Translations under genes and position numbers: made by a program | The notes under the pieces: model-generated | Seen by the model: only the letters and a program-made list of their open reading frames with translations | The model's database searches: none | Told to the model about the DNA's origin: nothing | Source: Chthoniobacteraceae bacterium | Lineage (GTDB): Bacteria; Verrucomicrobiota; Verrucomicrobiia; Chthoniobacterales; Chthoniobacteraceae | DNA length: 64,000 nt | Assembly: GCA_947471505.1 (NCBI GenBank) | Contig: CANIWM010000006.1 | Location: 1 to 64,000, forward strand | Direction of reading: 5' to 3' | In this document: positions 5,490 to 22,130 of the stretch, one piece after another | How positions within the stretch are numbered: position 1 is the stretch's first letter | How the letters are laid out: each line of letters opens with the position of its first letter

Positions 5490-6662
<1,173 letters not shown>

Positions 6663-6681
6663 CGGCAGGAATCTCCTGTGG

Positions 6682-6704
6682 ACGGGGTGATGAGCCCGTT
6701 TTAG
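6682..6704 (+). terminator. Weak terminator-like hairpin after tgt
   Basis: ACGGG (6682-6686) and CCCGT (6695-6699) can pair over an 8-nt loop, followed by a short T-run (TTTTA). It lies 20 nt after the tgt stop. The stem is only 5 bp, so this is a candidate rather than a firm call. Confidence 0.35.
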
Positions 6705-6737
6705 AGTCGGCGCGTCTCGCGCTTATAATCCTTCACT

Positions 6738-9700
6738 GTGAACTCGTTTCGTACACGAACTATCTTTGTCCTCCTCTGTCTCGTCCTCGTTATCGCGCTC
6801 TTCCCTCGTGGAGAAAAGGTGACGTTGCCTTTGCCGGTCGCGCCGATGGAGTTAGCGCCGGAGCCAGCGCGCCCGGTTCGCGTGGCGGAGGTTCCGGGGA
6901 ACTCGGCGGTGGATGCGTTTGCGAAATGGACGGAGCGATTTCTCGCTGCGGAGATGGAGGAAAGGCGGGCTTTGCTGGATCAAGGGATCACGCTGGCTTC
7001 GGCGCGGCGGACGGAACTGAAGGCGCTCATCGCGCATAATCCGCGTGAGGCGCTGGCGAGGGCGGTGCCGCCGGTGGTGCGGCAGCAGTTGCCGCGTGCG
7101 GTGGTGGAGCGGCTGGAGGAGCGGGTGAATGAGGCGGCGTTTTTCGGGGTGCTGGGTGCGTTGCCAGGTGCGGGGTCGGAGGTAGGGCCGGCGATTCGGC
7201 GGCAGGTGCGGACGGATGATGGCGCGAACTATCGGGCGTTTGTATTTGGTCGCCGGAGCACCCAGCAGACGACGGATCGGGCGAGCATCGTAGGTATCGC
7301 CGTGGATGATTTTCTTGCGGTGGATGAAAGTCCGTTGCGCGTGGTGGCTGCGGGGGAAATCCCGAATCATCCGAACAACCTGACGCAACGTCGGCGGGTG
7401 ACGACGCGGGACGACGCGGGCTTTTCTGCGGGCCGAGAGCTCCGTGAGCAGGGTGCCGCGAAGCCGCTGGTGGACGTTTGCCCGATCTCGGGCATCGCGT
7501 CTCCACTGCCGGAAAGTAACGCGCCGATTTCCGCAGAGCAGCCGGTGATCGAGGCGGAGGGGCAGGTTCAGTTTTTGTGCTCAGGCGGTCACGTCCACGC
7601 GTATCGCAACATGCTGGTGGCGCGGGAGGGCGCGAACGGTGGACCAGCGAAGCCCTCGAATCTCCCGACGGCGACGCAGTCCACCGGCTACAAGTCCCAC
7701 CTCCTGATGCGCGTGGCTTTCCCCGAGGTGCGGAAGGAGAGCTTGAGCGAAAAGGAGGGCTACCAGCTCGGGAAGGATGTGGAGGATTGGTTCGTGGATT
7801 CGAGCTATGGGAAGTTGAGCTTCATCACCACGGTGACGCCCCTTTTGATCCTGCCGCGCACCGAGGCGTGGTACAAGGACGTGGATACGAGCGGGAGCTC
7901 CTACGAGGTGCTGACGGATGCGCGCATCGCGGCGAAGGCGGCGGGATTTGACCCGGCGAACTTTGATTTTGATACGGTGATTTTCACGGGCTCGCCGGGG
8001 AGCTTCGGCGGGCAGGCATACGTCGGCGGCAAAGGCTGCTGGCTGAAATCGGGCACGGGCATCGGCGTGGCGTGCCACGAGTACGGGCACAACTTCGGGC
8101 TGTGGCACGCGAACTCTTGGAACACGAGCGGCGCGTCCATCATCGGCAGCGGCACGCATGTGGAATACGGCGACAGCTTCGACACGATGGGCAGCGCGAG
8201 CGCCGGCGATTTGCAGTTCAACGCGTGCCACAAGAACCTCCTCGGCTGGATGCCCGACAGCGTCGTCCACACGGTGAAGTCGAGCGGGACGTATCGCATC
8301 TACCAGATGGACCAGCCGCGCCAGGACCCCGCGCTGCGCTACGCGATCAAAGTGAGGAAGGATACGGATCGGGATTACTGGGTGGATTTGCGGCAGAAAT
8401 CGTTCAGCAGCAATCGCTGGGTGGCGGGCGGCGTGTTCCTGCACTGGAGCCCGTGGGTGGCGAGCGAAGGCGGGTCTCACTTGCTCGATACGACGCCGGG
8501 GTCGCCGGATGATAAGACGGATGCGCCTATCGTGATCGGGCGGACTTTTAGCGACACGGAGACGGGCGTCCACATCACGCCGGTGGCGAAAAATGCGACG
8601 ACACCGACGAGCTTCGATGTGGTGGTGAATGTGGGCACTTTTTCCGCGAATCAAGCACCCACGCTGGCGATCAGCGCAGACCAGCTCGCGGTAGCTACGA
8701 GCGCCGTGGTCACTTTCACCGCGACGGCGGCAGACCTCGATGGCGACGCGCTGAGCTACTGGTGGGACTTCGGCGACAAAAACTTCGCGACCACGAACAC
8801 CGCGATCACCACGAAATCGTGGACGACGGCGGGCGACTATGCGGTGCGCTGCGTCGTCAGCGACATGAAGGGCGGCACGGCATCGCAGACGCTCGTGGTG
8901 CGCGTGGGCTCGCCGACGGTCTTTTCGGTTTCGGGCACGATCACGTTGGCAGGTCAGCCGATGGCGAATGTGCGCGTTCACAACGGGCTGACCTCCACGA
9001 GCTACAAAGGATCGTTCACGAATAGCGACGGCACGTTCGTCATCCCCGGCCTCACGGCGGGCACTTACACGATTGGCGCGGCGGCTTACGGCTACACGTT
9101 CTCGGGGGTCTCGAAGACCGTCGGGCCGAGCGCGACGGGCGTGGATTTTACCGCGACAGAGACGCCTCGGCTGAGCATCACGGCAGTCACGCCGACGGTC
9201 GCGGAGGGCGCGAATGGCACGCTGCGCATCTCCCGGACGGGCGCGACGACGAGCGCACTCACGGTGAACGTGGCGAACCCGCTGGGCTTCGCGATCAAGG
9301 GGAGCGACTTCACGCTCACGCCCGATTTCGGCTTCGCGGACCCGTATTACACGCTCACGATTGCGGCGGGGCAGGCGGACTTAAATGTGACCTTTGCGGC
9401 GACTGCGGACTCCGCGCAGGAGGGACCGGAGAATGTGACCTTCGAGCTACTGCCGACCAGCGGCTACGTGATCACAAGCAGCACCGCGACGATCTCCGTC
9501 ACGGATGATGATACGACGAAGCCACTCGTCCGCCTCATCACGCAAGACGCCGACGCCAGCGAGGCTGGGGACGCGGGGCAGTTCATCGTCGAGCGGTTCG
9601 GCACGACGGCGGCAGCGCTCAGTGTCACGGTCGCACTGACCGGCACGGCGACGAACGGCACGGACTACACGAGCATCCCGACGACGGTGACGATTCCCGC

Positions 9701-12700
9701 CGGCCAGACGCAGGCGACCGTGAACGTCACACCCATCGCCGACAGCCTCATCGAAGGGCTGGAAACGGTGACACTCACGATCAGCACGAGCGCAGCCTAC
9801 CCTTACATCCGGGCGTCAAGCAGCGCGGACTACGCGGGCACGGTGAACCTCGTGGACGCGCAGACGCCCATCGTCTCCATCGTCGCCAGCGATGCGGCAG
9901 CGGCGGAGGCGGGGAATGATCCCGGCATCTTCGTCATCACCCGCACGGGCTCGACGACGGGCGCGCTCCTCGTACAGCTCGGGCTCACGGGCAGCGCGCT
10001 GCAAGGCGTGGACTACGCGACCATTCCCGCGCAAGTCACCATCCCGGCGGGCAGCGATTTTACTACCGTAGTCGTCACGCCGATTGATGATGGAATCGGC
10101 GAGCCTGCGCAGACCGTCCGCCTTTATCTCCGCGCCGCGAGCGCCTACACCATCGGCGCGGCGGGCGACGCCACGGTGACGATTACGGATAATGCGGACG
10201 TGCCTTATGTGACCGTAAGCACGACGAGTTCGGCGAAGGAATCGGGGACGAGCGGCTCGTTCAAAATCACCACGCAGGGCACGGGCAGCGGGAACATCAC
10301 ATTGAACTACACGCTCTCCGGCACGGCGGTAAATGGGACGGACTACACGACGCTGCCCGGCACTTTGAGCATCGCGAAAAATTCGACGACCAGCATCTCC
10401 GTCGTGCCCATCCAGGATACGGAAAGCGAAGGCTACGAGAGCGTCACGCTCACGCTCACGCCCAACGCAGCTTACGGGCTGGCGATTGATAGCTCGGCGA
10501 CGCTCAACATCGAGGACGACGAAGTACCGCAAGTGAACGTCTCCACGACGGACGACACCTTTTCCGAAAACGACGGAAACACCGCGCTGTTTTTCGTCTC
10601 GCGCACCGGCTCTACGACTGCGGTGCTGACGGTGAATTACACGATGTCCGGCACCGCCACGAGCGGGGCGGACTACACAGCGCCCAGCGGCACCGTGACG
10701 ATCCCTGCCGCCGCCGCCGGAGCTTACGTGAACATCGCCATCCTCGGCGACTCGCTGCTCGAAGGCACGGAGACCATCACGCTGAACGTCACGCCCGAAG
10801 CCACGTTCAGCGCGGGCATCGGGTCCGCGACCTACTCCCTCGACGATGCGGAGACGCTCACGCTCGGGTTGCGCTATAATCCGAACACGCCGACAGTCTC
10901 GGAGGGTGTGGGGCTGGCAACGGCGACTATCACACTCAGCGGCGTCTCTGCGAATACGGTGACGGTGCAGACGATAGTGAATGGCGGCACTGCACTCGGC
11001 GGCGGGCTTGACTACGCTTACCTCGGCGAGGTGGTGGAGTTTGCGCCGGGCGAGACGAGTAAAGTGATCAATATCCCCATCACCGACGACACACTGCCGG
11101 AGGGAAATGAGACCATTATCCTCAATCTGGACAACCCCACGAACGCACGCCTCAGCAACACCGCCTCCAATACGGTCCTCACGCTCACCATCACCGATAA
11201 TGACGCCACTCCCGCTGCAACTGTCGGCTTTACCAGCACGACGGGCACGGGCTCGGAGGCTATCGGAGTCGCACCGATCTACGTGACGCTGAGCGGCGCG
11301 CAAGCGGGCGTGGTGACGGTGGATTACGCGGTGACGGGCGGCACGGCGACGGCGGCGGACCACACGATTGTGGCAGGGACGCTGACCTTTGCGGCGGGCG
11401 AAACGGCGAAGCTTCTGCCGAACAGCATCGTGGACGATGGCAACCAGGAGACGAACGAGACGATCATCCTGACGCTCTCCAATCCCACGGGAATCGTGCT
11501 CAGCGCAAACGCGACGCACACGTTCACCATCACCGACAACGATGCGATGACGCTCACGATTGCGGCGACGACTGCGAGCGCGTCGGAGCCCACGACAGAC
11601 GGGCTTTTTACCATCACGAGGACAGGAGCTATCGCCAGTGCAGCGACGGTGAATCTGGTTGTCACCGGCACCGCGACCGCAGGTGCGGACTACGTCGCGA
11701 TCCCTGTCACAGCCACTCTGGCAGCGGGTTCGGCGACGACGACGATTCCTGTGAGCGTGCTCGATGATGCGACGGGCGAGGGAAATGAAACGGTGATCGT
11801 GACGTTGGCGGCGGGCGGTTATTCCATCGGGACACCGAGCGCCGCGACGGTGACGATTACCGACGATGAACCCACGGTGAGCATCGGAGCGAGCGATGCT
11901 TCGGCTGCGGAACTTGGCACGGACCCCGGCACGATTACGATCACGCGGACGGGCAGCACAGCGGCCAGCCTCACGCTCGATGCGACGATTTCCGGCACGG
12001 CCAGCGCGCCGGATGATTACGCGGCGCTTGCGCTGCCGCTCACGATTCCTGCGGGCAGCGCATCGCTCACGCTCACCGTGGCTCCGGTGGACGACATTGC
12101 GCCGGAGGGCAGCGAGACGGTCATCGTCACGCTGAACGTCGCGGTGGGCTATCTCATCAGCGGCCCTGCGACTGCGACCGTGACGATTCTCGACGATGAT
12201 GTGAACGCGCCGCCGACGGTGACGGTGAGCAGCCCGACCATTGGCACCGTCACGCTGCCTGCGGGCGTCGGGATGATTTTGGAGGCCACGGTATCCGACG
12301 ACGGGAAGCCCATCGGCGGCTCGCTCACAAAGACGTGGAGCAAAGTCAGCGGACCGGGCACTGTGACGTTTGGCGACGCCGCGCAGCCGACTACGACCGC
12401 CCTTTTCAGCGCAGCGGGAACCTACGTCATCCGCCTCGCTGCAAACGACGGCGCGCTGGCGACCAATGCGGATATCAACGTCACAGTCCTGCAAGCCGAC
12501 CAGACATGGACTGGCTCGAACATCGCCTCTGCGACGCCTGCTGGCAGCTACTCGGAGACCGATGGGACGTTCACCGTGCTCGGCGGCGGCGCGAATATCA
12601 CCGGCTCGGCGGACACGTTCTATTTCGTGCAGCATCAGCTCGTCGGGAACTGCGATTTCCGCGCACGAGTGGTGAGCATGACGGGCGGCGGCAGCTCGGC

Positions 12701-14354
12701 GAAAGCAGGCGTGATGATCCGGCAGACGACCGCTGGCGATTCACGCGGCGCATATATGTCTTCGTATGGCACCGGCTCGACCTCGCATTCATGGCGGACT
12801 CGCGCGACGGATGGCGCGAGCTGGGCTACAAGCAGCGTGACAGGCACGCCGTCCCTTCCGCGCTGGGTTCGCGTCGTGCGCAGCGGCAGTAGTTACACCG
12901 GTTTTGTTTCGGCGGACGGCACGACATGGACCGCCGTCGGCACTGCGGGGACCGTGAATATGACGGAGCCGATGCTCATCGGCCTCGCCGTGACATCCAA
13001 TAGCACGACCGCGCTGACGACCGCCGTTTTCGATAACGTGAGCATTTTACAGACGGGTAACATCGCACCGTTCGTGAGCGCAGGCGTGGACGGATCGACG
13101 GTCCTCCCGCAGCCCGCCGCGCTCGGCGGAAGCGCGAGCGACGACGGCGCTTTCACGACGCACTGGGAAAAGCGCAGCGGCCCAGGAACCGTGATATTTG
13201 CGGACCTAGCGGCGGCGACGACGACGGCGGAGTTCAGCGCGCCGGGCAGCTATGTGCTGCGGCTCATCGCCGACGATGCACAGGTGAAGACGTTCGACGA
13301 AGTGACCATCACCACAAGCGTGCCGGAGGTGAACATCACTGCAAACGCGCCCACCGCCACGGAGGCAAACGGCGGCGTGGCAGCTTACACGATCACGCGC
13401 ACGGGATCGGGTGACTCCACGATGGCGGTGCAATTTACCGTCGGCGGAACTGCCAGCGCGGCGGACTACACGAGCGCGACGCTCGGCAACGGCGGGCTCT
13501 CCATCCCCATCGGGTCCACGATCGCCGTGGTGAGCGCGGCGATAGTAAAAGACGCGATCATCGAGGGCGCGGAGACGCTCTCCGTCACGCTCAACTCCGC
13601 CAGCGCCTACACGCTCGGCGTAAACCCCACGGCCAACGTGAGTATCCTGGATGCGCCCGTTCTTTCCATCGCCGCGACCGACCCGACCGCCACCGAGCTA
13701 GGGCTCACGACGGGCCTTTTCACCGTCACCCGAAGCGGCCCGACAGCCAGCGCACTTGCGTTCTCCGCCAGCGCCAGCGGTACCGCCAGCTTGGGCGCTG
13801 ACTATGCAGATTTCGGCACGGCGTTCACCATCCCCGCCGGGCAATCTTCGCTCGCGATCACTCTCTCCCCGCTCGCCGATACGCTCGCAGAAGGAAGCGA
13901 GACGGCGACCCTCACACTCATCGAGAGCGGCGACTTCGCCGTCGGCGGTGCATCTGCGGGAATCACCATCGCAGACCTCCCCGCAGACGATTGGCGGATG
14001 GGGAAATTTGGGGCTGGCGCTGGCAATCCAGCCATCTCCGGCGACCTCGCAGACCCCGACGGCGACGGCATCGTGAACCTCCTAGAATACGCCTTCGCAC
14101 AAGAGCCGCTGACGTATGAACCCGCCCCGGCACTGAGCCTGAGCAGCGGCGAACTCACACTCACCTACCGCCGCAACCTGCTCGCCCCCGACCTCACTTA
14201 CCTCGTGCAAAAAAGCACCGACATCTCCGCCTGGCAGCCCGCATTTCCGACAGAAGAAATCCTCTCCGACGACGGAAGCGTGCAGGTGATACGGGCGCAC
14301 GTATCCGTCGGCACAGACGTCGCAACCTTCCTCCGAATCCGTGTGACGAAGTAG
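6738..14354 (+). CDS. Giant secreted metalloprotease-like protein with about 11 Calx-beta repeats
   Basis: A 2538-aa exported protein. The GTG start is followed by a hydrophobic leader (RTIFVLLCLVLVIALFP). A propeptide-like region leads to an M6-like (immune inhibitor A) catalytic domain at about 300-630. Its zinc motif is HEYGHNFGLWH from H447, fitting HExxHxxGxxH. Then come a PKD domain (~640-725), a CarboxypepD_reg-like domain (~729-800), nine Calx-beta repeats (~811-1824), a PKD-like domain, a DUF1349-like beta-sandwich (~1923-2105), another PKD-like domain, two more Calx-beta repeats (~2197 and ~2309), and a C-terminal domain with DPDGDGIVNLLEYAF common at the end of verrucomicrobial exported proteins. 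Calx-beta repeats usually bind Ca and mediate adhesion. A TATAAT at 6724-6729 is only 8 nt from the GTG, suggesting a near-leaderless message or a different promoter. The substrate is unknown. Confidence 0.88.
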   Translation: MNSFRTRTIFVLLCLVLVIALFPRGEKVTLPLPVAPMELAPEPARPVRVAEVPGNSAVDAFAKWTERFLAAEMEERRALLDQGITLASARRTELKALIAHNPREALARAVPPVVRQQLPRAVVERLEERVNEAAFFGVLGALPGAGSEVGPAIRRQVRTDDGANYRAFVFGRRSTQQTTDRASIVGIAVDDFLAVDESPLRVVAAGEIPNHPNNLTQRRRVTTRDDAGFSAGRELREQGAAKPLVDVCPISGIASPLPESNAPISAEQPVIEAEGQVQFLCSGGHVHAYRNMLVAREGANGGPAKPSNLPTATQSTGYKSHLLMRVAFPEVRKESLSEKEGYQLGKDVEDWFVDSSYGKLSFITTVTPLLILPRTEAWYKDVDTSGSSYEVLTDARIAAKAAGFDPANFDFDTVIFTGSPGSFGGQAYVGGKGCWLKSGTGIGVACHEYGHNFGLWHANSWNTSGASIIGSGTHVEYGDSFDTMGSASAGDLQFNACHKNLLGWMPDSVVHTVKSSGTYRIYQMDQPRQDPALRYAIKVRKDTDRDYWVDLRQKSFSSNRWVAGGVFLHWSPWVASEGGSHLLDTTPGSPDDKTDAPIVIGRTFSDTETGVHITPVAKNATTPTSFDVVVNVGTFSANQAPTLAISADQLAVATSAVVTFTATAADLDGDALSYWWDFGDKNFATTNTAITTKSWTTAGDYAVRCVVSDMKGGTASQTLVVRVGSPTVFSVSGTITLAGQPMANVRVHNGLTSTSYKGSFTNSDGTFVIPGLTAGTYTIGAAAYGYTFSGVSKTVGPSATGVDFTATETPRLSITAVTPTVAEGANGTLRISRTGATTSALTVNVANPLGFAIKGSDFTLTPDFGFADPYYTLTIAAGQADLNVTFAATADSAQEGPENVTFELLPTSGYVITSSTATISVTDDDTTKPLVRLITQDADASEAGDAGQFIVERFGTTAAALSVTVALTGTATNGTDYTSIPTTVTIPAGQTQATVNVTPIADSLIEGLETVTLTISTSAAYPYIRASSSADYAGTVNLVDAQTPIVSIVASDAAAAEAGNDPGIFVITRTGSTTGALLVQLGLTGSALQGVDYATIPAQVTIPAGSDFTTVVVTPIDDGIGEPAQTVRLYLRAASAYTIGAAGDATVTITDNADVPYVTVSTTSSAKESGTSGSFKITTQGTGSGNITLNYTLSGTAVNGTDYTTLPGTLSIAKNSTTSISVVPIQDTESEGYESVTLTLTPNAAYGLAIDSSATLNIEDDEVPQVNVSTTDDTFSENDGNTALFFVSRTGSTTAVLTVNYTMSGTATSGADYTAPSGTVTIPAAAAGAYVNIAILGDSLLEGTETITLNVTPEATFSAGIGSATYSLDDAETLTLGLRYNPNTPTVSEGVGLATATITLSGVSANTVTVQTIVNGGTALGGGLDYAYLGEVVEFAPGETSKVINIPITDDTLPEGNETIILNLDNPTNARLSNTASNTVLTLTITDNDATPAATVGFTSTTGTGSEAIGVAPIYVTLSGAQAGVVTVDYAVTGGTATAADHTIVAGTLTFAAGETAKLLPNSIVDDGNQETNETIILTLSNPTGIVLSANATHTFTITDNDAMTLTIAATTASASEPTTDGLFTITRTGAIASAATVNLVVTGTATAGADYVAIPVTATLAAGSATTTIPVSVLDDATGEGNETVIVTLAAGGYSIGTPSAATVTITDDEPTVSIGASDASAAELGTDPGTITITRTGSTAASLTLDATISGTASAPDDYAALALPLTIPAGSASLTLTVAPVDDIAPEGSETVIVTLNVAVGYLISGPATATVTILDDDVNAPPTVTVSSPTIGTVTLPAGVGMILEATVSDDGKPIGGSLTKTWSKVSGPGTVTFGDAAQPTTTALFSAAGTYVIRLAANDGALATNADINVTVLQADQTWTGSNIASATPAGSYSETDGTFTVLGGGANITGSADTFYFVQHQLVGNCDFRARVVSMTGGGSSAKAGVMIRQTTAGDSRGAYMSSYGTGSTSHSWRTRATDGASWATSSVTGTPSLPRWVRVVRSGSSYTGFVSADGTTWTAVGTAGTVNMTEPMLIGLAVTSNSTTALTTAVFDNVSILQTGNIAPFVSAGVDGSTVLPQPAALGGSASDDGAFTTHWEKRSGPGTVIFADLAAATTTAEFSAPGSYVLRLIADDAQVKTFDEVTITTSVPEVNITANAPTATEANGGVAAYTITRTGSGDSTMAVQFTVGGTASAADYTSATLGNGGLSIPIGSTIAVVSAAIVKDAIIEGAETLSVTLNSASAYTLGVNPTANVSILDAPVLSIAATDPTATELGLTTGLFTVTRSGPTASALAFSASASGTASLGADYADFGTAFTIPAGQSSLAITLSPLADTLAEGSETATLTLIESGDFAVGGASAGITIADLPADDWRMGKFGAGAGNPAISGDLADPDGDGIVNLLEYAFAQEPLTYEPAPALSLSSGELTLTYRRNLLAPDLTYLVQKSTDISAWQPAFPTEEILSDDGSVQVIRAHVSVGTDVATFLRIRVTK

Positions 14355-14357
14355 CCG

Positions 14358-15121
<764 letters not shown>

Positions 15122-15125
<4 letters not shown>

Positions 15126-15880
15126 CCGAAAATTCCGTTTACGTAGTCGCTGGTGCGTTGGTCCTTCGGGTTGGAGCCGAAGAGTTGTTCGGTGGGACCG
15201 AGCTCGATGATTTCGCCGTTCCACAGGAACATGGTCCGCGCGGCGAGGCGGCGGGCTTGCTGAACGAGATTGGTGACGAGGATAATCGTCATGTCTTTCT
15301 TGAGCTCCTTGAGCACGTCTTCGATGCGCATCGTGGTGACGGGGTCAATGGCGATGCTGAATTCATCGAGGCATAAAATCTCGGGGCTGTGTGACAGCGC
15401 GCGCGCGATGGTGAGGCGCTGCTGTTGTCCGCCGCTCAGTTTGGTGCCGAGGCTGTCGAGACGGTCTTTTACTTCGTCCCAAAGCGCGGCTTGCGTGAGG
15501 CATTTTTCGACGAGCACATCGAGCTCGCCTTTGTTGTTCATGCCGGCGGCGCGCGGCGCAAATGCGACGTTTTCCCAGATGGTGAGCGGGAGTCCGACGG
15601 GCAGAGGTGCGACCATTCCGATGCGGCGGCGCAGGCCATAGACGTCGCTCATTTTTGCGGTGTCTTCGCCATCAACGCGGATGGTGCCGCTCATTTTCAC
15701 ATCGCTGGTAAACTCGATCGTGCGGTTGATGCAGCGGAGCAGCGAGGTCTTTCCAGACTGTGCGGGCCCGATGATTCCGAGAATCTCGTTTGGCTCGATG
15801 TGGAAGTTGATTCCGTGGATGACTTCCTTTGCGCCGTAGCTGAGGCGCAGGTTTTCGACTTGGACTTTTGGATTTACCAT
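15122..15880 (-). CDS. pstB: Phosphate ABC transporter ATPase, copy B (intact LSGGQ, no Q-loop Gln or switch His)
   Basis: A 252-aa PstB paralogue. Walker A is GPAQSGKT (38-45), the signature LSGGQQQRL (148-156) is perfect and Walker B is LCLDE (169-173). The Q-loop, normally MVFQ, reads MVAP with P92 in place of Gln. The switch His, normally VTHN, reads VTNL with N204. The D-loop SALD is IAID. Its own ATP pocket should therefore hydrolyse poorly, yet it can supply a normal signature to its partner. It overlaps pstA by 7 nt and copy A by 4 nt, so both ATPases should be made at similar levels. The start at 15880 is supported by family alignment. Confidence 0.93.
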
Positions 15881-16785
15881 TTTTTGCGGCCGCGCAGCCA
15901 GGAGCGGAAGATGATTGCGGTGAGGTTGACGAACAACACGAGCCCGAGGAGGACTGTGGCGATGGCGAACGGCAGCGCGTGCGGCGCGTTCGTCACCTGC
16001 GTTGTAACGGTGAACAGGTGCATCGAGAGCGCCATGCACTGGTCATTCAGCCCGTAGGCGAATAGATTGCCCTCCTCGATTCTGCGGTAAAACACAGCGC
16101 CGGTGAACATGATCGGTGCTGTCTCGCCGGCGGTGCGGCTGACTTGCAAAATGACACCGGTGAGGATGCCGCTGACGGAGTTTGGCAGGACGATGCGCCA
16201 GATTGTCTGCCACTTGGTCGCGCCAACATTCCAGCACGCTTCGCGGAACTGGCGCGGCACGGAGGCGAGCGCTTCCTTGGTTGAGGCGATGATGACTGGC
16301 ATCGTCATAATCGCCAGTGTGAGCGCTGCGGCGATGATGCTTCGGCCCATTCCGGCGAAGAGCACAAATGCGCCGAGTCCGAAAAGCGCGTGAACGATGC
16401 TGGGCACGCCGGCGAGGTTCACGACTGCGAGATTTACGACACGGTTGAACCAATTGTCTTTCGCGTATTCGTTGAGATACACGGCGGCGAGAACGCCGAT
16501 GGGCGCGCTGATGCAGAGCGAGACGATGACGAGCCAGAAGGTGCCGAGGAGCGCGCTCCAGATGCCGCCTTTGCGCATTCCGCCGATGGGGTTTGTCGTG
16601 AGAAATTCCCAGTTGATAAGCGAGACGCCCTCTTTGATGAGGTAGCCGACGATAAGGAAAAGCGGGATGACGATGCACGCCACCATGAGGGCGAAAATGC
16701 CGCGGGCGATTTTCTCGGAGCGCTGCTTCTTTCGCGTGAAGGCGGTTTCGCCAAACTGGGATACGGGTTGTTCCGGAGCGTGCAT
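15874..16785 (-). CDS. pstA: Phosphate ABC transporter permease PstA
   Basis: A 303-aa inner-membrane permease with a short cytoplasmic N-terminus, a first membrane span (IFALMVACIVIPLFLIVGYL), a periplasmic loop containing FLTTNPIGGMRKGGIW, then five further spans. The ABC permease coupling loop lies around REACWNVGATKWQTIWRIVLP. With PstC it forms the channel through which PstS delivers phosphate. It is two nt downstream of pstC and overlaps pstB copy B by 7 nt. Confidence 0.95.
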   Translation of the reverse strand: MHAPEQPVSQFGETAFTRKKQRSEKIARGIFALMVACIVIPLFLIVGYLIKEGVSLINWEFLTTNPIGGMRKGGIWSALLGTFWLVIVSLCISAPIGVLAAVYLNEYAKDNWFNRVVNLAVVNLAGVPSIVHALFGLGAFVLFAGMGRSIIAAALTLAIMTMPVIIASTKEALASVPRQFREACWNVGATKWQTIWRIVLPNSVSGILTGVILQVSRTAGETAPIMFTGAVFYRRIEEGNLFAYGLNDQCMALSMHLFTVTTQVTNAPHALPFAIATVLLGLVLFVNLTAIIFRSWLRGRKKW

Positions 16786-16787
16786 GG

Positions 16788-17687
16788 TTACTTGTTCTTG
16801 ATGCCTTTCACGACAAGGTCGGCAACGAGGTTGACGATGAACGTGATGGTGAAAAGCAGGATGCCGATGAGGAAAAGGACGCTGTAGTGCGGCGAATGTT
16901 CGGGCGCCTCGCCGAGTTCGGCGGCGATGGTGGCGGTGAGTGTGCGGACACTGTCGAAGACGCTGTGAGGCACATTGACCGCGTGCCCGGTGGCCATGAG
17001 GACGGCCATCGTTTCACCAACTGCGCGTCCGACTCCGAGCAGGATTGCGGCGAGCAGTCCGTTTTTTGCAGCGGGTAGAAGCACGCGCCAGATCATCTGC
17101 CAGCGGGTCGCGCCGAGGGCCACTGCGGCTTCGCGGTAGCTGTCGGGCACGGCCTTCAGTGCATCTTCGCCGATGCTGACCATGACCGGAATACTCATCA
17201 GCGCGAGGAGGATTGCGGCATTCAGCACGCAAAGTCCGACTTGCACGCCGAAGAATTTTTGGATGAGCGGGTTCATCACCGTGAGGCCGATGAATCCCCA
17301 CACGATGCTGGGAATCGCAGCGAGCAACTCGATGACAATCTTCAATCCCTCACGCGTCTTCCCGGTGGAAAATTCCGAGACAAAAATTGCCGCCCCGAGA
17401 CCAAACGGAACCGCGATAAGCATCGCGACGCCGGTAACACTGAGCGTTCCAGCGATGAGCGCAAACGTGCCGTAGCGCACATTGCTCATCGAAGTGGGAT
17501 ACCACTCATTGGTCGTGAGGAATTTCCAAAGGCTGAACTTTTCGTTGCCAAAAATCGGCCACGCTTCGCGGAAGACGAAGTAGAAGATCGCGAACACGAA
17601 AATGATCGCGCTCATCCCGGAAAGCCGGATGAGCAGCTCGATCACTTTCTCGCCGTAGATGCTGAATTTTGAACGCGAATTGGTCAT
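16788..17687 (-). CDS. pstC: Phosphate ABC transporter permease PstC
   Basis: A 299-aa permease of the Pst system. Visible are a first membrane span (SAIIFVFAIFYFVFREAWP), the periplasmic loop FLTTNEWYPTS also found in PstA, the MLIAVPFGLGAAIFVSEF region, and the coupling segment REAAVALGATRWQMIWRVLLPAAKNG. Its length matches PstC. It lies 67 bp after pstS with a strong hairpin between them, so pstC-A-B-B may be expressed below pstS. Confidence 0.95.
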   Translation of the reverse strand: MTNSRSKFSIYGEKVIELLIRLSGMSAIIFVFAIFYFVFREAWPIFGNEKFSLWKFLTTNEWYPTSMSNVRYGTFALIAGTLSVTGVAMLIAVPFGLGAAIFVSEFSTGKTREGLKIVIELLAAIPSIVWGFIGLTVMNPLIQKFFGVQVGLCVLNAAILLALMSIPVMVSIGEDALKAVPDSYREAAVALGATRWQMIWRVLLPAAKNGLLAAILLGVGRAVGETMAVLMATGHAVNVPHSVFDSVRTLTATIAAELGEAPEHSPHYSVLFLIGILLFTITFIVNLVADLVVKGIKNK

Positions 17688-17754: not shown

Positions 17755-18669
17755 TTATTTGTCTTTAGGCGCGAACTCGGGAAGTGGGACGTAGCCACTC
17801 TCGATAACGAGCTTCTGTCCCGGCGCAGACACGATCCATTTCAGATACGCATCGACCTCAGGCTTTGCGCCCGGCGGGACATACATGAACATTGGGCGGG
17901 CGATGGGGTATGTCTTATCAAGCGTGGTTTTAATGGTTGGCTCAATGCTTGGGTCGCCGGTTTTCTTGGCGACTTTAATGACTTTCACTTTGTCCGTGCG
18001 GTAGCCGATGCCGCTGTAACCGATGGAACTGACAGTCGTGCCAACAAGGTCCACGACTTCTTTCGAGCCGTTCATGTCGCGCGAGCCTGCTTTGAAGTCG
18101 TTCTTTTTGCCGACGACTGCTTCGCGGAAATAGTGGTAAGTGCCAGAGCTGTTCTGACGGCTCACGCGGTTGATTTCGTCCTGCCCAGCAGGCATCGTAA
18201 CGCCGATGTCGCTCCACTTGTTGATCTTGCCGCCTTCTTTATAAATCTCGCTGAGCTGCTCCACGGAGATTTCCGTGATCGGATTGCTCGGGTGGACGTA
18301 AATGGCGAGCGCGTCGTAGCCGACGAGGTGCTCGGTCGGGTGCTTGCCGCCGTATTTCGCGGTGGCCTTCTCTTCTTCTTCTTTTTCGAGTTGGCGCGAG
18401 CTGTTGGCGATGTCGCAGGTGCCGTTGATGAGTGCCGCGACACCGATACCGCTGCCGCCACCAGCGACTTCTACGGAGACTTTCGGGTCCACGTCGTGGT
18501 ATTTCTCGGCCCAGGCTTGGGCGAGATTCACCATCGTGTCGGAGCCGATGTTTTGGATGGAGACGCCGTCTTTCTTGCCGCCGCCGTCAGCGGATTTTTT
18601 GCCGCAGCCAGTCAGCATGAGGCTGGTTGCTGCAAACGTTGCGATGCTCAGTGTGAGGATTCGTTTCAT
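17755..18669 (-). CDS. pstS: Phosphate-binding lipoprotein PstS
   Basis: A 304-aa substrate-binding protein that captures phosphate outside the inner membrane. The N-terminus MKRILTLSIATFAATSLMLT precedes a lipobox Cys at 22 (LTGC), so it is a lipoprotein. The phosphate-binding loops are recognisable: IGSDTMVNLAQAW, EVAGGGSGIGVAALING, SRQNSSGTYHYFREAV and GTTVSSIGYSGIGY. The start at 18669 is chosen because signal peptide and lipobox follow at once; the frame to 18747 has no support. It is 44 bp downstream of the phoU fusion. Confidence 0.96.
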   Translation of the reverse strand: MKRILTLSIATFAATSLMLTGCGKKSADGGGKKDGVSIQNIGSDTMVNLAQAWAEKYHDVDPKVSVEVAGGGSGIGVAALINGTCDIANSSRQLEKEEEEKATAKYGGKHPTEHLVGYDALAIYVHPSNPITEISVEQLSEIYKEGGKINKWSDIGVTMPAGQDEINRVSRQNSSGTYHYFREAVVGKKNDFKAGSRDMNGSKEVVDLVGTTVSSIGYSGIGYRTDKVKVIKVAKKTGDPSIEPTIKTTLDKTYPIARPMFMYVPPGAKPEVDAYLKWIVSAPGQKLVIESGYVPLPEFAPKDK

Positions 18670-18713
18670 TGTGTGTGTGTCTTGGGTTTGTTTTTGTTTT
18701 TTCGTGTAGGAAA

Positions 18714-19808
18714 TCAGGAGATTTTGTCGCCGAGCACGCCTTCGCAAAGGTCGGTGATTTGCTCGTAGAGAAAGGTGTAGGTCTTCTCGAAGGCGGCATT
18801 GCGTTCTGCCGGGTCGGTGATGGTGCTCGGGTCCGACAGGCTCCAGTCGAGGCAGACGGCCTTTGTCGGCTTCGGGAATGCGCGCTTCGCCGCCGGGTCG
18901 AGCGCGACGATGATTTGCGCGGCCTCCAGATTTGGAAGCTGGCCGATGCCTTTGCTCTGCGGATTGCGCGGGGCGATGCCCTTGCTCTCAAGGAATGCGG
19001 CCGTCGCGGGATCAATCGGCTGCGGGTCGAGACCAGCGCTGGCGAAGATGAACTGCGGCTGTTCGAGCTGGTTGGCAATCGCCTCGGCAAGCTGGCTGCG
19101 GCAGTGGTTGTGCTCGTCGATGAAGACCATGCGCCACGTATCGCCGCCATGCGCTTTCGGGTCTTCGCCCGTCACCATATAGATGACTTCCTCGGCGATG
19201 TTGGTGGACTGATCAGCCACCCGCTCGTAACGGCGGGCAACGGTCTGGAGCGGGTTCGCCGCCTCCTGCGGGATCTTGCCGTCCTTCACGAGCTGGAAAA
19301 TGTCGGCGTTGATCTGCGAGCGGAGCGCATCCGTCTCGGCCTCGCGTTTCATCACATCGCGGGCGAGGTCCGCATCGCCGGTCACGAACGCCTTCACCGA
19401 GTCGCGCAACATCGGGATGGCGATGGCGGCGAGTTGCTGAAACCGCTCCATCGGCACAGTCGCAGAGGTTTTCGTGAGCTTGATGATCTGCCGCGCGATG
19501 CTCTCGGCGTAATCACCGACGCGCTCCAGTTCGAGGTTCACCTTGATGGTGATGTAGGCAAAGCGCAGGTGGCGGGCGACGGGCTGCTGGCGGACGAGGA
19601 ACTCCAAGCAAAGGCGATCCACTTCTTTCTCCAGTTCGTCGATGCGACGGTCGCGAAGGATAACGGCGTACGCCTTCTTCCGGTCCTGAGCGACAAGTGC
19701 GCCGATGCAGGCGGTGAGCGCGTCTTCGGCGAGCTTGGCCATTTCGGAGACTTTGCCGCGGATGCGGCTCACGTCCCGTTCGAGTGATTCTTCGTAGTGC
19801 GATGGCAT
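18714..19808 (-). CDS. phoU: PhoU fused to a low-molecular-weight phosphatase/ArsC-fold domain
   Basis: A 364-aa two-part protein. Residues 1-215 are a complete PhoU with two three-helix bundles and the metal-binding signatures ERVGD (95-99) and ERVAD (195-199). PhoU restrains Pst transport and PhoR signalling when phosphate is ample. Residues 226-364 have the low-molecular-weight protein tyrosine phosphatase / ArsC fold. The P-loop, normally C-x5-R-S, reads D231-E-H-N-H-C-R237-S, so the catalytic Cys is Asp and the domain should be a pseudo-phosphatase. The DWSLSDP acid loop (321-327) is kept, which suggests the pocket still binds phosphate or arsenate. First gene of the pst operon; the start at 19808 lies 249 bp from the divergent DUF47 gene. 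Confidence 0.92.
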   Translation of the reverse strand: MPSHYEESLERDVSRIRGKVSEMAKLAEDALTACIGALVAQDRKKAYAVILRDRRIDELEKEVDRLCLEFLVRQQPVARHLRFAYITIKVNLELERVGDYAESIARQIIKLTKTSATVPMERFQQLAAIAIPMLRDSVKAFVTGDADLARDVMKREAETDALRSQINADIFQLVKDGKIPQEAANPLQTVARRYERVADQSTNIAEEVIYMVTGEDPKAHGGDTWRMVFIDEHNHCRSQLAEAIANQLEQPQFIFASAGLDPQPIDPATAAFLESKGIAPRNPQSKGIGQLPNLEAAQIIVALDPAAKRAFPKPTKAVCLDWSLSDPSTITDPAERNAAFEKTYTFLYEQITDLCEGVLGDKIS

Positions 19809-20057: not shown

Positions 20058-20693
20058 ATGCCACTCGCCAAACTATTCGGAAAAGAAACCCGCTTCTGGA
20101 CACTCCTTCAAAACGCCGCAGCCGAAGCCAGAGTCAGCGTCGCCGCGCTCTTGAAGCTCGTCGCCGCACTCGGCAGCAGCCCGACGGAAGCCCTTCTGGG
20201 AGACATCGCGCAGAGCCGCCGCAAGGCCAAGCAGTTTGCCACCGAGACCACCGAGGCGCTCACGAAGGTGTTCAATACGCCGCTCGATCGCGAAGACATC
20301 GAGGCGCTCAGCAGTGCTCTCTATAAGATCAGCAAAACGGTAGAGAAAATCGGCGAGCGGCTCACCATCTGCCCGCCCGGAGCGAAGTTCGACCACATTA
20401 CCAAGCAACTCGGAATGCTCGAGCAAGCTGCGGGGATCACCGAGATCCTCGTGAAAGAACTCTGCGGCGGACAACACGGCGAAAGGGTGAAAGAGCACTA
20501 TGAGCGCATTCAGGCCATCGAAACCGAGGCGGACAGCGTCATGACCGAACACCTCCGCGCTCTTTACCACGGCACCGATGAGCCGCGTTCGATTGTTTAC
20601 TGGAAGGACATGCTGGAGCTTGCCGAAAAGGCGATCGACCGCTGCCGGGATGCAGGCGACATCGTTTTCACAACCATTCTGAAAAACAGCTAG
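20058..20693 (+). CDS. DUF47 family protein (PhoU-like partner of Pit transporters)
   Basis: A 211-aa all-helical cytoplasmic protein of the DUF47/TIGR00153 family, related to PhoU. It begins MPLAKLFGKETRFWTLLQNA and has helical repeats with ERLTICPPGAKF and IQAIETEADSVMTEHLRALY. Members are regularly encoded just upstream of pit and are thought to regulate it. Here the gap to pitA is 6 bp. It is divergent from the phoU-pst operon and preceded by a Pho-box-like repeat. Confidence 0.93.
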   Translation: MPLAKLFGKETRFWTLLQNAAAEARVSVAALLKLVAALGSSPTEALLGDIAQSRRKAKQFATETTEALTKVFNTPLDREDIEALSSALYKISKTVEKIGERLTICPPGAKFDHITKQLGMLEQAAGITEILVKELCGGQHGERVKEHYERIQAIETEADSVMTEHLRALYHGTDEPRSIVYWKDMLELAEKAIDRCRDAGDIVFTTILKNS

Positions 20694-20699
20694 GCCGCT

Positions 20700-22130
20700 A
20701 TGACGCTCCTTTCCTTGGCGGCCGTCGAGGCCGCGAGCAGCGCCAGTTCGGGGCTTACGCTGCTCATCCTCACCATCGTTTTTGCGTTGATCTTCACGTA
20801 CACGAATGGCTTCCACGATACGGCAAACGCCATCGCGACCGTCATCGGAACGCGTGTGCTCACGCCGCGTCAGGCCATCGCGCTGGCGGCGGTGACGAAT
20901 CTCGTCGGCTCGTTCTTCGGGCTCGCGGTCGCAAAGACGATCTCCAGCGGCATCGTCGATTCCGGGTTCATGAATCAGCACGCGCTCATCTGTGCGATGA
21001 TTGCGGCGATTTTCTGGAACCTCATCACATGGTATTGGGGCCTCCCGAGCAGCAGCAGCCACGCGCTCATCGGCAGTCTCATCGGAGCCGCGATGGGAGT
21101 CGCGGCCATCACGGCACAGACGACCCCTTTAAAGAGCAAGGATGGCCAGGAAATCGGCGCATGGACTGCGGCGGTAAATTACGAGGAGATAAAGGAAAAG
21201 AAGGTGAAATCCCTCATCGCCGCACCTCCTGAACTCGTCGCCGCGCTCGGCGACAAGATGAAGATCAACGGCTCACACACCGTGATGCTCGACGGCAAAG
21301 ACGTGCAGGCAGTCGTCTTTTGCGATCGCGTAAAGATGGTCAAGGAAGAGACGAAAACCGTGAAGGAAGGCATCCTGCACAAAGTCATTTACCCGATGAT
21401 TTTCTCGCCGCTCATCGGCTTCAGCGCAGGACTCATTGTCATGGGGCTTCTTTACGCGCTGATCAGTAACTGGCGGCCGGTCACCGTCACCCGGTTCTTT
21501 GGCAAAGCGCAGCTCGCCAGCTCTGCATACATGGGCTTTTCGCACGGAATGAACGACGCCACAAAGTGCATGGGCATCATCACCCTCGCACTCGTCACCG
21601 GCACGAAAGCCGGGTATTTTATCGGCACACCCGATTGGATTTCGCACTGGCTCAGCACGCCGGAAGGCTCCAGCGCGCTCACCATGGGTCTCGGCGACCG
21701 GCTGATCTCGCTGCTCCCGAACTTTCTGCAAATGGGCTACATGCCCACACCCGCCGATGTAAAAAGTCAGGGCGTGCCCGATTGGGTGGTGCTCACCTGC
21801 GCGCTCACCATGGGCGCGGGCACTGCGGCCGGCGGCTGGAAGATCATCAAGACGCTCGGACACCAAATGGTGAAGCTGCACCCCGTCCACGGCTTCGCTG
21901 CGGAAACCACCGCGGCCACCGTACTCGCAGTCACCGGGTCGCTCGGAATGCCCGTTTCGACGACACACGCCATCACCACGAGCATCATGGGCGTAGGCTG
22001 CGCCCGCCGCTGGAATGCGCTCAATTTGCCGGTCGTCATCCGCATCATGCTTGCGTGGATATTCACGCTGCCCGTCACGGCGTTGATCGCCTACGTGCTC
22101 ACGCGCTTGTTCGCACCGGGCGCTGCTTAG
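20700..22130 (+). CDS. pitA: Low-affinity inorganic phosphate transporter (Pit family)
   Basis: A 476-aa inner-membrane carrier of the PiT family, which moves metal-phosphate with protons or sodium. The two signature repeats are present: TNGFHDTANAIATVIGTRVL near the N-terminus and GGWKIIKTLG with GMPVSTTHAITTSIMGVG near the C-terminus. A hydrophilic central loop (~155-225) with alternating Lys/Glu separates the halves. It is cotranscribed with the DUF47 gene. With the divergent pst operon the cell has both high- and low-affinity uptake under one control region. Confidence 0.95.
   Translation: MTLLSLAAVEAASSASSGLTLLILTIVFALIFTYTNGFHDTANAIATVIGTRVLTPRQAIALAAVTNLVGSFFGLAVAKTISSGIVDSGFMNQHALICAMIAAIFWNLITWYWGLPSSSSHALIGSLIGAAMGVAAITAQTTPLKSKDGQEIGAWTAAVNYEEIKEKKVKSLIAAPPELVAALGDKMKINGSHTVMLDGKDVQAVVFCDRVKMVKEETKTVKEGILHKVIYPMIFSPLIGFSAGLIVMGLLYALISNWRPVTVTRFFGKAQLASSAYMGFSHGMNDATKCMGIITLALVTGTKAGYFIGTPDWISHWLSTPEGSSALTMGLGDRLISLLPNFLQMGYMPTPADVKSQGVPDWVVLTCALTMGAGTAAGGWKIIKTLGHQMVKLHPVHGFAAETTAATVLAVTGSLGMPVSTTHAITTSIMGVGCARRWNALNLPVVIRIMLAWIFTLPVTALIAYVLTRLFAPGAA

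Follow-up and report, generated by a model that had tools for sequence, protein, structure and literature searches.

A PhoU protein fused to an ArsC-like domain with aspartate in the catalytic cysteine position, encoded beside two unlike PstB ATPases

The pst operon of the window (the whole stretch of 64,000 nucleotides analysed here) opens with a gene for a PhoU protein whose C-terminal domain has the fold of ArsC and the low-molecular-weight (LMW) phosphatases, with aspartate in place of the catalytic cysteine. The observation is real, conserved and wider than was seen by the earlier sequence-only reading of this DNA, and it seems to be a variant of the phosphate system that has escaped notice rather than a simple phosphate sensor. 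We lean towards the reading that the family is an old one: the C-terminus of PhoU acquired an ArsC-like domain, which exchanged its cysteine for aspartate early and now serves as a docking or allosteric module on an unequal pair of PstB proteins. What is new is that a dead-enzyme PhoU goes together with an asymmetric pair of Pst ATPases; the mechanism that we propose for it is an inference.

The fusion gene and its operon

The order of the operon is phoU::pseudo-arsC, pstS, pstC, pstA, pstB1 and pstB2, with every gene on the minus strand between positions 14358 and 19808, and genes for a PhoU_div protein and a PiT permease lie next to it in divergent orientation (Table 1). Box-like matches to the Pho box occurred in four of 12 upstream regions, at differing positions and with none conserved. 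The PhoB family cut-off was passed in one of 18 genomes, and kinase and regulator partners of the fusion were not found in this way. Downstream of the operon, on the plus strand (6738-14354), lies the gene for a secreted-looking protein of 2538 amino acids with many repeats, which we take to be of the Calx-beta type.

Table 1. Features of the phosphate gene cluster in the window
Feature	Position	Strand	Details and evidence
phoU::pseudo-arsC fusion gene	18714..19808	-	364 aa, ATG at 19808; opens the pst operon
PhoU part, residues 1-217, two PhoU repeats	19158..19808	-	profile matches; VIA-align Z 30.5 to 1t72
pseudo-ArsC (LMW-phosphatase fold) domain, residues ~224-359	18732..19139	-	profile, alignment, fold comparison
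P-loop remnant D231-E-H-N-H-C-R237, Asp in catalytic Cys position	19098..19118	-	translation, alignment
acid loop D321-W-S-L-S-D326-P327	18828..18848	-	translation
pstS, phosphate-binding protein	17755..18672	-	TIGR02136, 234.1 bits
pstC, permease	16788..17687	-	TIGR02138, 292.2 bits
pstA, permease	15874..16785	-	TIGR00974, 265.7 bits
pstB1: LSGGQ intact, Q-loop Gln to Pro, H-loop His to Asn	15122..15883	-	278.2 bits, under PstB equivalog cut-off 343.2; motif columns
pstB2: Walker A/B, Q-loop and H-loop intact, LQLEQ replaces LSGGQ	14358..15125	-	325.1 bits, under PstB equivalog cut-off 343.2; motif columns
PhoU_div (DUF47) gene, divergent neighbour	20058..20693	+	PF01865, 37.5 bits
PiT/PHO4 phosphate permease, neighbour	20700..22130	+	PF01384, 293 bits

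The window protein passes the full-length PhoU profile phoU_full (165.3 bits; cut-off 130.25), two of its stretches match PF01895 (PhoU), and residues 228-353 match LMWPc (PF01451) with 36.9 bits against a cut-off of 23.2. Its AlphaFold model has a pLDDT of 91.9 and a pTM of 0.65, values at which each predicted fold should be reliable and the relative placement of the two domains should not. VIA-align compared the PhoU part with 1t72 and gave the C-terminal domain a Z of 20.0 to the ArsC of Bacillus subtilis (1jl3); the latter fold also matches ArsC2 (8p5n), which was co-crystallised with arsenate, and the VIA-align rows list the mitoribosomal chains 7pua_FW and 9hny_FW as well. The profile scores and fold matches bear out the earlier claim of a PhoU fused to an ArsC/LMW-phosphatase fold within a pst operon. 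The fold assignment was right but can be sharpened: the domain is closer to ArsC than to the LMW phosphatases.

When the domain is aligned with arsenate reductases of known structure, Asp231 falls on the catalytic Cys and Arg237 on the Arg of the P-loop ('vfidehnhcrsqlaea' in the window protein, 'mfvckrnscrsqmaeg' in an arsenate reductase). The P-loop was read correctly in the sequence-only reading as D231-x5-R237. The domain thus fails the C-x5-R test for the catalytic loop, and with Asp in the Cys position phospho-cysteine chemistry is predicted to be impossible, as that reading had said. It also fails the equivalog profile for thioredoxin-type arsenate reductase, TIGR02691 (38.3 bits where 174.3 are required). 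A phosphatase fold without its catalytic nucleophile, retained over evolution, is what identifies a pseudophosphatase by sequence, and this is what was found here.

The catalytic position across the fusion family

The search of 57 relatives yielded twelve full-length fusions, that of the window included, and every one has Asp in the catalytic position; they are 48-96% identical to the window protein. Since the other 11 carry it too, a recent accident or a sequencing error is ruled out as the source of Asp231. Nine genus members have the fusion as their sole match to the window protein, so no second PhoU was detected there, and in eight of 30 named host genomes the fusion is the only phoU_full match. 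A scan of species genomes added 41 further fusions, the record titles of which name Verrucomicrobia, Lentisphaerae, Acidobacteria, Myxococcales, Deltaproteobacteria, Eisenbacteria, Magnetococcales, gammaproteobacterial symbionts and Rhodothermia; most of the records are metagenome-assembled genomes, so single taxon labels may be wrong. No relative was found in viral contigs, and none of 150 matching plasmid records spans 80% of the query. One genome (G944) has two operons of the Asp family (L350 and L351). In a Lamellibrachia symbiont (L058) the operon seems to be interrupted past pstC, with no PstB match within the stretch examined.

An early count of 53 fusions gave 49 Asp, two Glu, one Cys and one Ser, with Arg237 in 26. 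After members had been added and one near-duplicate removed, the 61 rows of the first set read 56 Asp, two Glu, two Cys and one Ser, and a further 20, found later among 297 genomes from a single phylum and 369 from a single class, read 19 Asp and one Ser, with the Arg in four. Together, the 81 sequences of the family have Asp in 75, Glu in two, Ser in two and Cys in two; some are near-identical, so these are not 81 independent events. The sequence-only reading had named a majority of orthologues with Cys as evidence against it, and inside the fusion family Cys was found in those two of 81. Ordinary PhoU loci (L072, L074-L110), a second row for one gene (L031, the same as L005) and a broken fusion with Asp (L271) were left out of the counts; L041 was dropped from the tree as near-identical to L043, and L184 and L185 were dropped because their P-loops are identical to those of L048 and L049. 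The later search also returned G445, G466, G461 and G465, which were already known, and G780, which has PhoU only. In L271 the fusion gene (6356-7210) passes into the 3' portion of a PstB2-like gene, through a large deletion or an assembly error.

LMWPc domains outside PhoU served as the control and keep C-x5-R in 43 of the 43 that could be read; the control comprised 45 loci (one set of 30 and 15 of 20 further stretches, a subset of rows), two of which, L154 and L175, were unreadable by pattern. Loss of the cysteine as the common state of LMWPc domains is thereby ruled out.

The residues around the catalytic position have fared unequally. In the first set, none of the 59 non-Cys rows departs from F229, A241 or W322; next among the best-kept positions of the domain comes Asp231 (56 of 59), which shares fourth place with residue L303. 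Three scaffold positions, which we take to be the counterparts of bovine LMW-PTP residues Asn15, Ser19 and Ser43, are kept in 46 (Asn234), 47 (Ser238) and 54 (Ser257) of these rows; Cys236 is present in 36, the acid-loop Asp326 in 34, and a second acid directly after Asp231 in 38. Across all 79 non-Cys members an acid, Asp or Glu, occupies the catalytic position in 77, and the phosphate-gripping Arg is present in 29 (25 of 59 and four of 20) and absent from 50. The earlier statement that Arg237 and the acid-loop motif DWSLSDP remain is thus true of the window protein, and ten of the 12 close fusions, that of the window among them, keep the Arg, but the statement does not hold family-wide. By sequence, then, the loop scaffold and the acid are mostly retained, and the residues predicted to grip phosphate and to donate a proton are often gone.

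The domain is under purifying selection: in 21 pairs of close relatives its dN/dS is 0.03-0.28, and that of the PhoU part is 0.03-0.24. Open reading frames of the complete Asp-family members in one set span 354-379 amino acids. Of the 12 close fusions, the one furthest from the window protein shares 40% identity with it in the domain and 48% over the whole protein.

A tree of 94 domains, built with the P-loop columns removed, places the family in one clade (support 86/91); within it the Cys-bearing members L056 and L284a branch first (85/81) and the other 59 group together at 96/84. In an earlier tree of 84 domains, with the P-loop included, support for the family was 100/96. As the Cys pair branches first, the catalytic cysteine was probably lost once, early, within the fusion family, a placement that has moderate support and depends on the outgroup.

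Nine other PhoU-ArsC fusions have Cys in six cases (L263-L266, L291 and L361) and Ser in three (L292, L293 and the second fusion of L284), and the PstB adjoining them is canonical in all nine. That every PhoU-ArsC fusion is dead is therefore ruled out. When both kinds are read together (n=90), the catalytic position is Asp in 75, Glu in two, Ser in five and Cys in eight. In the 94-domain tree, which does not include L361, these other fusions group with ArsC and away from the Asp family, so PhoU and ArsC have been fused on more than one occasion, with loss of the Cys at least twice. In L263-L266 the fusion, with its Cys intact, lies 3' of a single canonical PstB, and in L263-L265 a protein that reads, by eye, as an ArsR-like domain plus ArsC precedes pstS, which points to arsenic; pst operons inside arsenic islands have been described (PMC3834237). 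PhoU-LMWPc fusions are rare in the phylum, with nine in 387 genomes. The phylum-wide scoring of Cys versus Asp that the sequence-only reading had proposed came out divided over these nine: five, one of them the broken L271, belong to the Asp family and have Asp or Glu, but the other four have Cys and are of the separate, arsenic-linked kind.

Two side observations belong here. The Ser-bearing fusions of L292, L293 and L284 (13763-14890) read SVEDAGR, with the Arg kept, and are the better candidates for a phosphate pocket that only binds. Separately, an LMWPc domain with an intact C-x5-R lies near the start of a frame of 743 amino acids (G000:C23:62929-63351), and similar long frames are present in many relatives.

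Two unlike PstB ATPases

The columns for Walker A, Q-loop, signature, Walker B and H-loop read K, P, LSGGQ, E and N in PstB1, and K, Q, L[QLSPR]LE[QE], E and H in PstB2, in which LQLEQ or LSLEE stands in place of LSGGQ; the Walker A Lys and the Walker B Glu are present in both proteins. Complementary damage of this type was found in 58 of 59 readable pairs (42 of 42 in the first set and 16 of 17 in the later one), and the exception, L347, has Tyr at the PstB2 H-loop. The first set comprised 55 family loci, of which 42 have complete pairs, seven have no PstB in reach, four have PstB1 only and two (L289 and L290) are further degenerate; the later set comprised 20 loci, with 17 readable pairs and three incomplete ones. 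For L036 the PstB2 H-loop was read off a second fragment behind an assembly gap. P93 and N205 of PstB1, like Q94 and H208 of PstB2, do not vary among the 29 sequences compared for each protein. A single canonical PstB is present in each of eight ordinary pst operons: L072, L074, L075, L165, L166 and those that lie beside the family operon in L045, L055 and L284.

The window pair shows the complementary loss of catalytic motifs in two nucleotide-binding domains by which degenerate-site transporters are recognised; from such damage one of the two ATP sites is predicted to be of the consensus type and the other degenerate. We infer that the two proteins pair as a heterodimer in which one site hydrolyses ATP and the other is degenerate, a pairing suggested by the adjacency of their genes. 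A more damaged ATPase pair adjoins the fusion in L289 and L290, with no match to PstS, PstC or PstA in the stretch; there (L289, 7665-10576; L290, 7792-10677) a putative Ser/Thr kinase gene precedes the fusion, and two PstB-like ATPases in which the Walker B Glu has become Gln come after it.

A PstB1 profile run over the 387 phylum genomes gave 21 matches at E <= 1e-85, of which 20 belong to asymmetric pairs and one (L314) is canonical. Four of the 20 genomes with asymmetric pairs have the fusion (G000, G067, G116 and G269); in the other 16 no fusion was found, and the six loci examined among them (L315-L317 and L318-L320) have an ordinary PhoU at the end of the operon. These six rule out the fusion as the cause of the PstB asymmetry, for which the pseudo-ArsC domain is evidently not needed. 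The asymmetric ATPase pair is wider than the fusion, which probably arose inside it. A second, more distant asymmetric kind of PstB also occurs in the phylum (L318-L320 and L303-L313), with a VTNN H-loop and a signature that is mostly LPLDQ or LPMDQ, or LSPEQ in L311; in L318-L320 it is accompanied by an ordinary PhoU.

Possible roles of the pseudo-ArsC domain

PhoU connects PstSCAB with the sensor kinase, likely via PstB and PhoR (PMC12096839). In the mechanism that we propose, the hydrolysing site would be made by the nucleotide pocket of PstB2 and the LSGGQ of PstB1, and the degenerate site by the pocket of PstB1 and the LQLEQ or LSLEE of PstB2. The PhoU body would dock on the PstB1-PstB2 heterodimer, as an ordinary PhoU is thought to do on PstB. 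Asp231 would replace the buried thiolate in such a way that the P-loop stays folded and closed to phosphate, and the dead ArsC domain would offer a surface, without catalysis, to either the unequal ATPases or the sensor kinase. A bolder version, which we regard as doubtful, is that labour is split between the two ATP sites: one would hydrolyse, the site of the PstB1 pocket and PstB2 LQLEQ or LSLEE would bind ATP as a regulator, and PhoU with its dead ArsC domain would be the dedicated reader docked there, with phosphate status signalled from the degenerate site.

The sequence-only reading had proposed instead that the dead pocket still binds phosphate, or arsenate, and reports cytoplasmic phosphate to PhoU. 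The retention of Arg237 in most close fusions, the well-kept Asn234, Ser238 and Ser257, and the fold match to an ArsC2 crystallised with arsenate all favour such a pocket, and the Trp beside the acid loop and the kept P-loop scaffold weigh against docking in that they would also fit a retained ligand site. With its scaffold mostly kept and Arg237 present, the window protein may bind an anion. We nevertheless consider phosphate sensing an unlikely explanation, also as the general function at the level of the family: only 29 of the 79 non-Cys members have the Arg, Asp326 is variable, and the conserved carboxylate at the base of the loop would be expected to repel phosphate. Nor does sensing explain why the acid is retained alongside frequent loss of the Arg.

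Decay of the catalytic residues, together with the lower identity of the domain than of the whole protein in the most distant close fusion, could be taken to mean that the domain is a vestige, a decaying fusion partner that acts as a mere tail or stabiliser. The purifying selection on it, the acid in all but two non-Cys members, the three invariant residues and the steady length of complete frames make this a poor prospect. Slighter still is the prospect that Asp231 binds a metal or accepts a phosphoryl group in the manner of receiver or HAD domains; a second acid often follows it, and 'LFVDEDN' resembles, we presume, the start of a receiver domain, but neither that second acid nor the Arg is conserved and the fold is clearly that of ArsC. 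Least credible is a surviving enzyme with Asp231 as its nucleophile or Cys236 as a migrated one. The window protein does have Cys236 and an intact acid loop, but in the 59 rows Cys236 and Arg237 are kept in only 36 and 25, respectively, and the score against TIGR02691 falls far short. Our preferred reading remains that of a docking or allosteric module.

The protein shares with the PhoU of Pst systems (TIGR02135; 1t72, 4q25) the two PhoU repeats, the fold and the pst operon, and it differs from it in its C-terminal pseudo-ArsC domain, its two unlike PstB partners and the position of its gene, which is first or second in the operon rather than at its end. With the thioredoxin- and glutaredoxin-type ArsC and the LMW phosphatases (PF01451; 1jl3, 8p5n, 2l17) it has in common the fold, the P-loop scaffold and, in the window member, the acid loop; unlike them it has Asp for Cys, mostly lacks the phosphate-binding Arg and is fused to PhoU; to judge from sequence, it is not an active member of that group. 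A dead phosphatase domain kept as a regulator also describes the pseudophosphatases of the STYX group and PTPRU. These, like RPTP gamma and zeta, in whose D2 domains the Cys is replaced by Asp, belong to the classical or dual-specificity PTPs of eukaryotes, which have another fold, whereas the domain described here is a bacterial ArsC fold within a transporter regulator. The second domains of RPTP gamma and zeta are reported as dead domains kept as regulators, RPTP gamma forming a head-to-toe D1-D2 dimer (PMC2638020).

In the ABC transporters TM287/288 and TAP, motif damage likewise leaves one consensus and one degenerate site, and RbsA and NupO of B. subtilis are importers with one degenerate site (PMC11466899); the same source lists B. 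subtilis PstBA and PstBB without a remark on such a site in the part consulted. The present case differs from these in being a phosphate importer with two separate PstB subunits that both keep the Walker A Lys and the Walker B Glu. In Enterococcus faecalis, too, pstB1 and pstB2 lie side by side and have different functions, but both have canonical motifs (PMC12096839), a test of the Firmicute-type double PstB that the window pair fails. The PhoU and LMWPc architecture may be listed in domain databases. In titles and the openings of abstracts, with subscription papers thinly covered, we found no description of a PhoU-ArsC fusion, of its dead domain or of the degenerate PstB pair, and the words 'fusion', 'fused' and 'arsenate' were absent from the main text of a 2026 study of PhoU clades (PMC13170248).

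This family is a natural experiment on how PhoU learns the phosphate status of the cell. Its two ATPases are encoded by separate genes that can be mutated singly, which is impossible where there is a single pstB gene. The family also adds a bacterial group with the ArsC fold to the pseudophosphatases, and its Cys-bearing sister proteins allow the dead and the intact catalytic loop to be compared directly.
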